Assembly: GCF_030684675.1 (NCBI RefSeq)
Contig: NZ_JAUXXZ010000034.1
Coordinates: forward strand, 1-36,952
Direction: 5' to 3'
From: Daejeonella sp.
GTDB taxonomy: Bacteria; Bacteroidota; Bacteroidia; Sphingobacteriales; Sphingobacteriaceae
Length of the DNA stretch: 36,952 nucleotides
Shown: one piece after another, positions 32,541 to 36,893 of the stretch
How positions within the stretch are numbered: the first letter of the stretch is position 1
Layout: each line of letters begins with the position of its first letter
Program-made: the position numbers and the translations under genes
Notes under the pieces: model-generated
The model's database searches: none
The model's input: the letters and a program-made list of their open reading frames with translations, nothing else
What the model was told of the DNA's origin: nothing

Positions 32541-32628
32541 ATTTGTCTATTATTCTATTTGTCTATTTGTCAATTGCGATGTGCCCTAATGGACAAATCA
32601 ATAAATCCGATTTTATCGGATGACAAAT
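32541..32628. repeat. Repeat/hairpin region in the infC-rpmI spacer
   Basis: Two features share the spacer. ATCCGAT (32605-32611) and ATCGGAT (32615-32621) form a 7-bp hairpin with a 3-base loop directly after the infC stop. The part near rpmI repeats TATTTGTC-type units (32541-32574), and GTCTATTTGTCAAT at 32561-32574 is identical to the arm of the scoA-scoB element at 11940-11953. Short complementary GACAAAT copies are at 32592-32598 and 32622-32628. Confidence 0.65.
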
Positions 32629-33200
32629 TATTTTTTTCCTGCATGCTTTGGAGCTACGGTAAGGAACATACGCTTACCTTCTAATTTAGGTAGTTGTTCT
32701 ACTTTACCAACATCCTCCAAAGCCTGAGCAAATTTTAATAAAAGGATTTCTCCCTGCTCTTTGTAAACAATTGCACGGCCTTTGAAATGAACATAAGCAC
32801 GTACCTTTTCTCCATTTTCAAGGAAGCCAATCGCATGTTTCAGTTTGAACTGAAAATCATGATCATTGGTATTAGGTCCAAAACGAATCTCTTTAATGAC
32901 CGTTTGTTTTGCGTTGGACTTAATTTCCTTCATTTTTTTCTTCTGCTCGTAGATAAACTTGTTGTAATCAACAATTTTACATACAGGCGGAACTGCATTC
33001 GGGGAAATCTCAACAAGGTCAAGATCCTGTTCAATAGCCATAGCTAAGGCTTCTCTGAACGGATATATACCAGTTTCCACGTTATCACCAGTTAAACGCA
33101 CTTCAGGCGCTCTGATCAAATCATTGATCTTATGTTCTGCTTCTTTCTTTTTAAACGGAGGTCGTGGTCCCCTGTTAAAGCCTGGTCTTCCTAATGCCAA
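32628..33200 (-). CDS. infC: Translation initiation factor IF-3, UUG start
   Basis: A 190-residue IF-3, which binds the 30S subunit, prevents 50S joining and checks start-codon identity. The N-domain begins [33 protein letters not shown] and includes [28 protein letters not shown]; the C-domain starts near residue 105 ([23 protein letters not shown]) and has [18 protein letters not shown]. The start must be TTG at 33200, because the upstream in-frame codons AAT, TAT, AAA and GAA end in the thrS stop TAA only 12 bases before. Thus infC lies in the thrS frame and is initiated by a non-AUG codon, as infC is in many bacteria. Confidence 0.96.
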
Positions 33201-33212
33201 ATTATATTTTTC

Positions 33213-35138
33213 TTAAATTGTAATTTCTTTAACTAACTGATTACTAAACTCTTCAATCTTCATACTACCTGCATCTCCCTGTCCATGTCTTCTAACAGAA
33301 ACCATGCCGTCATTCATTTCCTTCTCACCAATGATGAGCATGTATGGAATCTTTTTCACTTCCGCATCTCTTATTTTGCGGCCAATCTTCTCGTCACGAG
33401 AGTCAATCAAGCCGCGAATATCGGAATTATTAAGCGATTCTAAAACTTTTTTTGCATAATCCTCATATTTTTCAGAGATAGGAAGAACGATGAATTGCTC
33501 GGGAGTTAACCATAATGGAAATTCTCCGGCACAGTGCTCGATCAATACGGCAACAAAGCGCTCAAGTGAACCGAAAGGTGCCCTGTGTATCATAACCGGG
33601 CGATGTTTCTGATTATCGCTTCCTGTATATTCCAGTTCAAATCGCTCAGGTAAATTATAATCAACCTGAATGGTTCCCAACTGCCACTTTCTTCCCAGTG
33701 CATCTTTCACCATAAAGTCGAGTTTCGGACCATAAAAAGCCGCTTCGCCCAATTCAACAACGGTTGTTAAGCCCTTTTCTTCTGCTGCTTCAATGATAGC
33801 AGATTCGGCCAGCTGCCAGTTCTCATCACTCCCAATATATTTCGCTTTACTTTCAGGATCACGGAGAGAGATTTGGGCAGTATAATTATCAAATCCCAAT
33901 GCCTTGAATACATATAGTACAAGGTCAATCACTTTCTTAAACTCTTCCTTCACCTGATCGGGACGGCAGAATAAATGTGCATCATCCTGTGTAAAGCCAC
34001 GAACACGGGTTAGTCCATGCAATTCGCCACTCTGCTCATATCGGTAAACGGTGCCAAACTCTGCATACCTTACAGGAAGATCCTTGTAGGAACGGGGCTT
34101 AGTTTTGTATATCTCGCAGTGGTGTGGGCAGTTCATCGGTTTTAAAAAGAACTCCTCTCCTTCCTGAGGTGTCTTTATTGGCTGAAATGAATCAGCACCG
34201 TATTTCTCATAATGTCCTGAGGTGATATAAAGGTTCTTATGGCCAATATGCGGAGTAATTACCTGCTCATAACCTGATTTAACCTGTGCCCGCTGGAGGA
34301 AGTTTACCAGTTTCTCTCTTAATGCAGTTCCTTTTGGAAGCCATAATGGTAAGCCCATACCTACCTTATCTGAAAAAGCAAAAAGCTCTAATTCCTTACC
34401 CAATTTACGGTGGTCACGCTTTTTTGCCTCTTCAATCATGTGAAGATAATCAGTCAGCTCACTTTGCTTTGGATAAGTTACTCCGTAGATACGGGTCAAT
34501 TGCTTTCTGCTCTCATCCCCTCTCCAGTATGCTCCGGCCACATTCATCAACTTTACTGCTTTAATGAATCCTGTATTCGGAATATGGGGTCCGCGGCACA
34601 GATCAGTAAAATTTCCCTGAGTATAAAAAGTAATTGAACCATCACTAAGATCTTTAATCAGATCCAGCTTATATTCATCATCTTTTTCTGTAAAATATTT
34701 AATGGCATCTGCTTTGGAAACCGCTTGCCTTGAGAAATCAGATTTTTGTCTCGCAAGTTCAAGGATCTTATCTTCAATCTGCTTAAAATCATCAGAGGAA
34801 AATTCCCGGTCACCAAAGTCAACATCGTAGTAAAACCCGGTTTCAATTGCCGGACCAATACCAAACTTGGTCCCCGGATATAAGGATTCGAGAGCCTCTG
34901 CCATTAAATGGGCAGACGAATGCCAGAATGTAGCTTTTCCATCCTGATCATTCCAGGTAAGTAATTTTACTGCTGAATCTGACTCAATCGGACGGTTGGA
35001 ATCCCATACTTGCCCGTTAACCTCTGCTGCTAAAACATTTCTGGCTAATCCTTCAGATATTGAAAGTGCGACTTGATGCGCTGTGGTTCCCTGTTCGTAT
35101 TCCCGCACTGAACCATCAGGAAGTGTAATTTTGATCAT
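33213..35138 (-). CDS. thrS: Threonyl-tRNA synthetase
   Basis: A 641-residue class II synthetase. The N-terminal TGS domain (residues 1-60, [24 protein letters not shown]) is followed by the editing domain with [11 protein letters not shown] (about 74-84) and the C-x-GPHIP motif (DLCRGPHIP). The catalytic core has motif 2 [57 protein letters not shown] region, with the zinc-binding Cys in NCPHH, and the anticodon-binding domain begins near residue 540. It heads the thrS-infC-rpmI-rplT operon. Two anticodon-arm-like hairpins in its leader, one over the start codon, suggest autoregulation by the enzyme. Confidence 0.96.
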
Positions 35139-35150
35139 CTACAAAATGAT
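35133..35150 (-). promoter_or_regulatory. Start-codon hairpin of thrS resembling a tRNA-Thr anticodon arm
   Basis: On the minus strand AUCAU, loop UUUGUAG, AUGAU (then C) forms a 5-bp stem with a 7-nt loop. The loop positions correspond to tRNA positions 32-38, giving U33, anticodon UGU at 34-36 and A37, i.e. the threonine ACA-reading anticodon. The thrS AUG (35138-35136) is the first three bases of the 3' stem. Binding of ThrRS here would block initiation. Confidence 0.7.
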
Positions 35151-35179
35151 TTATATGTTATAATTTAAAATATTCAAAT

Positions 35180-35198
35180 GATCACCTACAAAGTGATC
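35180..35198 (-). promoter_or_regulatory. Upstream thrS leader hairpin resembling a tRNA-Thr anticodon arm
   Basis: On the minus strand GAUCAC, loop UUUGUAG, GUGAUC forms a 6-bp stem with exactly the same 7-nt loop as the start-codon hairpin. The two hairpins are a direct repeat (16 of 18 bases identical), and the two differences are a paired change of the loop-closing C-G to U-A. They are separated by 29 mostly A/U bases expected to be single-stranded. Confidence 0.7.
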
Positions 35199-35364
35199 TT
35201 CAATTCAAGAGCAAAAATAGGATAATTTGGGTAATTTTTCATGTAGAGACAAATGTTTGAGCAAGGTAAATAGCTGATAACATAGGTATATCTCATTTAG
35301 GTAAATATAATACAGCAATTGCCTGTCCCGTTTATAGTCGCACCGCTGAATAGCCCGGAGCTAA

Positions 35365-35435: not shown

Positions 35436-36893
35436 ATGCAAGGCAAAAAAGGCTATCAGGAAAAGTTGTTTATCACTTTTCGACTATCTGACCATGTTCC
35501 CCAGGACAATATTTATCGTCGTTTGAATGAAACGGTTGATTTTAGTTTCTTATACCGATCCACTTATACTTATTATGGAAAGGAGGGGCAAAAGAGTATA
35601 GACCCCGTAGTGTTTATGAAACTGATGCTGGCGGGCTATCTGGAAAACCTCAATAGTGATCGTAGGATCATAAGCATGGCACGAATGCGTATGGATATAC
35701 TTTATTTCATCGGCTATGACCTTGACGAGGAACTACCCTGGCATAGTACGCTGAGCAGAACTAGGCAGCTGTACGGGCAGGAAGTATTTACAGAGTTGTT
35801 CAAGAAAGTACTTAAGCAGTGTATCGACAAGGGAATGGTAAGTGGCAGGCGCCAGGCTGTAGACGGAGTTTACCTCAAGGCCAACGCTTCAATGGATAGT
35901 TTGGTAGAACGAGAGATCATGGCAGATGCAGAGGACTTCAGCAAAGAATTATCTGAGCAGGGCGAAGCATCTGACGATGTTGTTAGATTCGAATCGAAAA
36001 GTGAACCTCAAGAGGTTATCCCTAATAAAAAAACCGGCAATAAAACCCATTATAGTCCATCCGACCCGGATGCCCGAATGTCGGTTAAACCAGGCAAGGC
36101 GGTTGCCCTGAACTACTTGGGTCAGGTCGGCGTAGATATGGCTAGCCATACAATCACACACGTTCAAGTATTCACGGCCGACAAGCGTGATTGTCAATGC
36201 CTACCCGAAATGCTTCCAACTATGGTTAATACACTAGCTGCTGGCGGGTTGAAAATGCAAGAGATTGTAGCCGATACAGGTTACAGTAGTCCGGATGCAC
36301 TAAAATCGATTGAAGAAAACCGATTAACGGGTTATATTCCCAATCCGAAACAAGTGGTGTACAGCAGAGAAGGGTTCATTTATGATCCTCAGGAGAACCA
36401 ATACATCTGCCCTGTGGGGGAAGCACTTGTTTACAAAGGAAGGTCGGAGGTCGACACAGATATATATAGATTGAGCAAGCGCGTGTGCAATGAATGCAGC
36501 CTCAAAGATCAATGCTCCGTAATGGGCGCCAATGGAGCGAGCATCAGGCAAACAGTAGATAAAGCATATTACGATCGCATGCACGAACGCATGCAGACCC
36601 GAAAGGCTAAGATTCTGATGAAAAAACGTCAGAGCACAGTAGAACCAGTCATCGGAACCCTGGTTGATTACTTGGGGATAAAAAAACTCCGTTGTAAAGG
36701 ACTGGCACAGGCAAATAAATGCCTCACTCTGGCGGCAGTGGCCTATAATCTTAAAAAATTATTAAAACATAGAACCGACGCAGAGTTAAGGAAGCTACAG
36801 ATTCACAAACCAGATATCAGCTTTAATGACTTTACTAACAGTGTAGCTCTCTTTTACAGGGGATGGTTTAATCTGCTACCTATCACCCAATAA
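35436..36893 (+). CDS. IS1182 family transposase
   Basis: A 485-residue DDE transposase that appears full length. The N-terminal DUF772-like region contains VPQDNIYRRLNETVDFSFLY (about 20-39), DPVVFMKLMLAGYLENLNSDRRI and ELPWHSTLSRTRQ. The DDE catalytic triad is probably the Asp in AVDGVYLKANAS, the Asp in IVADTGYSSPDAL and the Glu in STVEPVIGTL (about residue 406). A cysteine cluster (CPVGEA, CNECSLKDQC) near residues 325-365 is usual in this family. No frameshift or internal stop is seen, so the element may still be active. Confidence 0.93.
   Translation: MQGKKGYQEKLFITFRLSDHVPQDNIYRRLNETVDFSFLYRSTYTYYGKEGQKSIDPVVFMKLMLAGYLENLNSDRRIISMARMRMDILYFIGYDLDEELPWHSTLSRTRQLYGQEVFTELFKKVLKQCIDKGMVSGRRQAVDGVYLKANASMDSLVEREIMADAEDFSKELSEQGEASDDVVRFESKSEPQEVIPNKKTGNKTHYSPSDPDARMSVKPGKAVALNYLGQVGVDMASHTITHVQVFTADKRDCQCLPEMLPTMVNTLAAGGLKMQEIVADTGYSSPDALKSIEENRLTGYIPNPKQVVYSREGFIYDPQENQYICPVGEALVYKGRSEVDTDIYRLSKRVCNECSLKDQCSVMGANGASIRQTVDKAYYDRMHERMQTRKAKILMKKRQSTVEPVIGTLVDYLGIKKLRCKGLAQANKCLTLAAVAYNLKKLLKHRTDAELRKLQIHKPDISFNDFTNSVALFYRGWFNLLPITQ

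Follow-up and report, generated by a model that had tools for sequence, protein, structure and literature searches.

A putative threonyl-tRNA synthetase operator with two anticodon-arm mimics in a Bacteroidota thrS leader

The leader of thrS in the stretch of DNA analysed here (36,952 nucleotides, hereafter the window) carries two hairpins resembling the anticodon arm of tRNA-Thr, one of which includes the start codon. Could threonyl-tRNA synthetase (ThrRS) bind such a leader and repress its own translation? The textbook example of tRNA mimicry in the control of bacterial genes is the E. coli thrS operator, in which, according to excerpts of two sources, ThrRS binds two thrS-leader hairpins and prevents 30S binding (PMC3858243, PMC9976931). 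An initial annotation had read the present leader as an analogue of that operator; this reading is supported by the sequence comparisons reported below, and we consider that the leader very probably acts as an autogenous translational operator of ThrRS.

The thrS locus and its leader

The thrS gene (33213..35138, minus strand) was identified from its open reading frame and by Pfam, and encodes the presumed repressor, a ThrRS of 641 aa with TGS, SAD, class II core and anticodon-binding domains. It is followed on the minus strand by infC (IF-3; 32628..33200), rpmI (L35; 32322..32522) and rplT (L20; 31900..32244), all three assigned by Pfam. The protein shares 42% identity with E. coli ThrRS, and residues R583, E600 and R609 of the latter, which we take to be anticodon contacts, are kept in 7/7 aligned ThrRS. 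The closest thrS relatives bearing names are Sphingobacteriaceae (e.g. a Pedobacter schmidteae MAG, 95%), and the family was taken as Sphingobacteriaceae on the strength of these named relatives.

On the minus strand, a promoter-like box, TATTTTTG (35212..35219), fits TAnnTTTG, which we take to be the Bacteroidota -7 promoter box, and ends 13 nt before the distal stem. The distal hairpin GAUCAC-UUUGUAG-GUGAUC (35180..35198) is joined by an A/U-rich linker of 29 nt (35151..35179) to the proximal hairpin AUCAU-UUUGUAG-AUGAU (35134..35150), whose 3' stem contains the thrS AUG (35136..35138). Both the two minus-strand hairpins with loop UUUGUAG and the location of the AUG inside one of them, as claimed in the initial annotation, were confirmed. 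Each loop reads as an anticodon loop with U33, U34, G35, U36 and A37. The genome's own tRNA-Thr genes, of which at least two were found in a scan of 30 of its 34 tRNA matches, have the arms ACUGA-CUUGUAA-UCAGU (UGU) and CUUCC-UUGGUAA-GGAAG (GGU); their loops therefore agree with the mimics at U33, N34, G35, U36 and A37, but disagree at position 38 (G in the mimic, A in the tRNA).

This layout recurs in the family. Of the 78 family leaders having a distal hairpin, 62 show a TAnnTTTG box no more than 60 nt ahead of its stem (median gap 12), and the linker, measured in 77 family leaders, has a median length of 28 nt (quartiles 27-30, range 23-76 nt). Such a near-constant linker would fit two arms held on one ThrRS dimer.

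Further upstream, a DDE transposase gene (DUF772, DDE_Tnp_1_6) occupies positions 35436-36893 of the window on the plus strand, oriented away from thrS. The sequence resembles that of the closest relatives compared throughout the thrS leader, a resemblance that stops by about 35314; the transposase gene thus appears to have inserted upstream of the promoter-like box of thrS.

Conservation of the mimics within and beyond the family

Leaders were retrieved from 80 named loci and from further genomes of the phylum, the family and the class. One locus (L061) had no upstream DNA, 13 loci (12 outside the family and L190) were start-anchored with looser settings and L305 was left unanchored, while L024 was left out of the proximal-loop, initiation, linker and box counts and kept in the position control. 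The counts given here are not independent events, as the sequences are related and some further genomes repeat named ones.

Hairpins having a loop of 7 or 8 nt and no fewer than 5 Watson-Crick pairs were sought with each of the 64 triplets placed at loop positions 35-37. GTA turned up in 115 of the 227 leaders; the mean for the 63 remaining triplets was 3.5 and their maximum 14. When at least 4 Watson-Crick pairs were demanded, one GTA hairpin or more was present in 24/24 named Sphingobacteriaceae leaders and in 67/73 further family leaders. The initial annotation had made its reading depend on relatives keeping the paired hairpins and not changing the loop freely; both hairpins were found in 20/24 named and 53/73 further leaders (i.e. 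73/97 family leaders, same setting), and the loop keeps GU while position 34 varies. In some family leaders, such as L214-L216, no mimic was found. Position mattered as well: a hairpin with GUA at 35-37 occurred in 89/101 family leaders between -110 and +9 versus 0/101 between -229 and -110, and in 5/1036 windows inside the thrS coding sequence.

The arm RUCAU followed by an NGU loop directly before the start was found in 86 of 98 distinct family leaders, using a pattern demanding G at -4 and U at -3, and this strict proximal form was missing in the remaining 12. Because the proximal 3' arm AUGAU is coding and fixed, the loop can be examined with no motif imposed on it. In 87 proximal loops picked solely by a 5' arm RUCAU located 6-9 nt before the start, with no condition on the loop, G35 was found in 86, U36 in all 87 and A37 in 83, position 34 being U in 80 and C in 7. 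In distal hairpins, for which G35-U36 was a search condition, position 34 may be A, C, G or U, and the stems range from AUCAC/GUGAU to AACGC/GCGUU and others. G35-U36 is common to all ACN anticodons, and its retention beside a free position 34 is thus expected of a ThrRS anticodon mimic for ACN codons.

The proximal mimic also has consequences for the initiation region, since it places U36 at -3 and U33 at -6, two positions at which initiation in Bacteroidota is favoured by A. U occupies -3 in 87/87 of the unconstrained proximal loops and -6 in 86/86 hairpin-bearing leaders; outside the family, A is found at -3 in 47/103 leaders and at -6 in 50/103. In well translated genes of Flavobacterium johnsoniae, A at -3 and -6 is commoner and U at -3 rarer, as described in part of PMC6847099. 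Forgoing these adenines in favour of the mimic is good evidence of selection acting on the mimic. Codon 2 of thrS is AUU or AUC in the family, AUA occurring in 0/86 leaders versus 35/103 outside it (Fisher p 5e-11, uncorrected for kinship); with AUC (16/86), the outermost proximal pair is lost.

Covariation was assessed on hairpin alignments. The initial annotation had argued for selection on structure from a C-G to U-A change between the two stems; this compensatory change is present, but taken alone it is weak, as it concerns two sister hairpins of one genome. The proper support comes from variation across species, where distal stems change with both partners. Alignment A2 contains 21 of 29 listed leaders, while A6 and A5 contain 15 and 7 single hairpins, respectively, from other groups; a further alignment of 31 out of 35 distal 7-nt hairpins (A3) backs no claim. 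As rows of A2, A5 and A6 were picked as pairing hairpins, covariation in them is biased upward, and less bias attaches to the controls based on triplets, shuffles and position.

In the distal helix of A2, 4/6 pairs vary on both sides and 99.2% of cells are paired. The whole A2 structure scored above all 500 shuffles on 4/5 measures and above every slid version; the fifth measure, further pair types, gave no excess (73/500 shuffles as high). In the proximal helix, 5/6 pairs are invariant and one varies on one side, and covariation is not demonstrable there because the 3' arm is coding and hardly varies. Without a given structure, RNAalifold recovered both hairpins with 11/12 pairs, the outermost proximal pair being missing. 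In A6, all six pairs (6/6) vary on both sides, a value reached by 48/500 shuffles, and 37 cells are changed on both sides against a shuffle mean of 9.2, above all shuffles. In A5, whose hairpins have 7-nt loops, 3/5 pairs vary on both sides (23/500 shuffles), with no excess of further pair types (459/500 shuffles as high).

The single hairpins mentioned above extend the picture beyond what the initial annotation foresaw. Outside the family, a single hairpin upstream of thrS was found in 31 of 169 distinct leaders, against 1.4 on average and at most 4 in 100 shuffles; these leaders were taken partly by similarity rank, so that 31/169 is not a census, and the other 138 had no such hairpin. No other triplet at 35-37 exceeded 8 in this set, and the position control gave 32/175 versus 2/175 in the upstream stretch. 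Carriers include Echinicola (L034), Belliella (L040) and Algoriphagus (L050, L052), and some leaders outside the family (L311, L317, L319) have CGU in the loop. In these single-arm lineages, the AUG lies outside the mimic.

Known systems and the proposed mechanism

The E. coli thrS operator (domains 1-4) and the present leader have in common the gene, the presumed ligand, the mimicry of the tRNA-Thr anticodon arm, the presence of two hairpins and their leader position. In E. coli, infC lies directly 3' of thrS, as here, presumably followed by rpmI and rplT. Two stem-loops joined by a linker are likewise found in both, the unpaired state of the linker being presumed here, whereas the other groups have one arm. 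The two operators differ in that arms are of 5-8 bp and loops of 7-8 nt here, and above all in that the AUG lies inside the proximal mimic, whereas the E. coli AUG and ribosome site lie outside the mimics. Model R1, the covariance model used in the genome searches below, found no operator in the E. coli leader and gave two 6-7-bit matches on the other strand; in the E. coli stretch that we take to be domain 2, the base after CGU is G instead of A, and a blastn search of thrS against E. coli gave no match. The leader would resemble the E. coli operator in kind of action; given the AUG inside a mimic and the lack of homology by R1, it is not counted as an E. coli operator by descent.

A T-box binds tRNA, which it reads with a specifier resembling a codon, whereas the RNA described here displays an anticodon; a search of the whole window with Rfam 15 at gathering scores gave no match, and neither did the T-box covariance model, on the whole window at gathering scores or on the leader with permissive settings. 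The two share leader RNA control of thrS, which in Bacillota is often placed under tandem T-boxes with two or three elements, as stated in a section of PMC12452182. In yeast, a synthetase is reported to bind an anticodon-like element in mRNA (PMC6542539, PMC9976931), but this case concerns a eukaryote, other genes and another layout. Within the same phylum, rpsU is subject to translational autoregulation through an extended Shine-Dalgarno sequence and ribosomes lacking bS21 (PMC9976891, in part); this circuit differs from the present one by having no tRNA mimicry. In the open-access literature searched, no report of a Bacteroidota thrS operator of this type was found.

We propose the following mechanism. 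The mRNA would start a few bases before the distal hairpin, as the promoter-like box suggests, and its two short stem-loops mimic the tRNA-Thr anticodon arm through U33-N34-G35-U36-A37, as the sequence shows. When ThrRS is in excess over tRNA-Thr, the homodimer would bind the leader, probably with one arm per anticodon-binding domain across the linker of 27-30 nt. Bound ThrRS would keep the weak proximal stem shut, making the start codon inaccessible to the 30S subunit, while plentiful free tRNA-Thr would displace it and, by analogy with E. coli, allow thrS to be translated. The pattern of kept and free loop positions is in line with threonine identity, which depends on acceptor-stem pairs and the anticodon according to part of PMC9976931. 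Control by this putative operator may extend to infC, rpmI and rplT. In single-arm lineages, an arm upstream of the AUG would deny the ribosome access to the leader, in the manner of the E. coli operator.

As to its origin, we lean slightly towards an operator proper to Bacteroidota, which would have begun as one arm between promoter and AUG, this family having gained a second arm over the start codon; the synthetase would here read the initiation region as a pseudo-anticodon, for which selection would have given up the favourable adenines at -3 and -6. The order in which the arms were gained is deduced from their present spread and not from a tree.

If the proposed operator is real, a second architecture in another phylum would indicate that anticodon-arm operators arise or persist widely, and the mimics that nature supplies, with loops of 7 or 8 nt and an unconstrained position 34, would allow what ThrRS reads to be probed. 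Bacteroidota mRNAs are naturally devoid of Shine-Dalgarno sequences (PMC6847099, in part), and the operator would show a ribosome of this kind excluded by a start codon placed inside a protein-binding stem.

Folding, specificity and rival explanations

Energy folding in this species did not single out the two open-loop hairpins. A 241-nt stretch folded alone had no stability excess over shuffles (z 0.13), and in the ensemble of the 95-nt leader pairing was about 0.42 for the distal hairpin and 0.19-0.27 for the proximal one. Folded singly, the hairpins are predicted to form two extra pairs across the loop, leaving three unpaired bases instead of an open 7-base loop, with energies of -2.2 (proximal) and -7.0 kcal/mol (distal), both including the two extra loop pairs. 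Given such a weak proximal hairpin, closure of the start codon would depend on a bound protein and not on the RNA by itself.

A weak A/U-rich stem over the AUG is also what a structural 5' hairpin or thermosensor would present, tuning mRNA stability or start access without ThrRS, and structure near the start is reported to tune initiation in Flavobacterium (PMC6847099, in part). This reading nevertheless leaves unexplained why G35-U36-A37 is kept with a free position 34 and why other groups have single arms upstream of the AUG, and we regard it as quite improbable.

It is a shade less probable still that the leader works as a swap switch, in which arms of the two hairpins pair together and ThrRS or another ligand shifts the balance. 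The lowest-energy fold of the 95-nt leader does join the two similar arms, the distal 3' arm pairing with the AUG arm, in a folding carried out for the window leader alone; yet several distal stems of the family are unlike the proximal one (e.g. GUUCGC, ACACUU, CAGUGU), so that the swap is not a conserved feature.

The specificity of the pattern argues for the operator reading. That the pattern is no product of chance was borne out by the recurrence of the hairpins in relatives and by model R1, which gave one match, the thrS leader, in its own 4.25-Mb genome at E<=10 (150 of 5307 first-look candidates scored). Other genes of this genome were considered as further targets of the same control and rejected, as R1 matched thrS alone. 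In the family, 87 of 121 genomes were matched, with 88 matches, 87 of them on the thrS start and ending 5 or 8 bases beyond the first position of the aligned thrS. At E<=1e-3, 34/121 genomes had no match; 20 of these were listed by name, and the leaders read among them have one arm (e.g. L166, L182, L188), two arms separated by a long linker (L087, L088, L184) or none that could be found (L214, L215). Among 149 genomes of the class, including five family members, four were matched at E<=0.01; three of these were family members and the fourth match (G370, E 0.001) lay away from thrS. In the permissive search of the leader against Rfam, the best match below threshold was RF02900, with 26.3 bits on the other strand against a threshold of 51.4; its printed consensus is without such a loop, and it was judged a chance match.

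In family leader L166, the DNA preceding the proximal hairpin, which is intact, resembles to the eye a tRNA 3' end and a terminator-like repeat, and no distal hairpin was found.

The pair of similar inverted repeats that follows the promoter-like box could also be DNA sites of a transcription factor controlling thrS. What is seen, variable arms around a conserved and strand-specific central NGUA, is the reverse of what a palindromic protein site would show, and in the 86 of 98 distinct family leaders cited above the second repeat adjoins the start codon and takes it in; we hold this explanation to be very unlikely, below the swap switch in probability. The least probable of the four is that the sequence is kept for another reason, as a repeat family or integration (att) site, for although an orphan leader copy lies near a phage-integrase-like gene in one genome, 1/88 model matches in 121 genomes falls off thrS and the stems vary on both sides between species. 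The ThrRS operator remains our preferred reading.

In that genome (G329; loci L282 and L283), a promoter-like box and two-hairpin leader copy (L282:1497-1562) stands about 150 nt before a 410-aa ORF with a phage-integrase SAM-like domain, and the real thrS has the same 20-mer over its AUG with a different upstream leader. The orphan looks like an integrative element using the thrS start hairpin as attachment site.

Finally, the proximal-hairpin pattern gave at least 12 further matches in family genomes, among the matches listed. The 12 that were opened were rejected as operators, each lying within a stop-to-stop open frame of 221-833 codons on either strand. In four genomes of genus g134 (L322-L325), the exact ATCATAGTTGTAGATGAT lies inside the conserved open frame IIVVDDEDRENEGD, presumably ribB, a coincidence that could be mistaken for a second operator.
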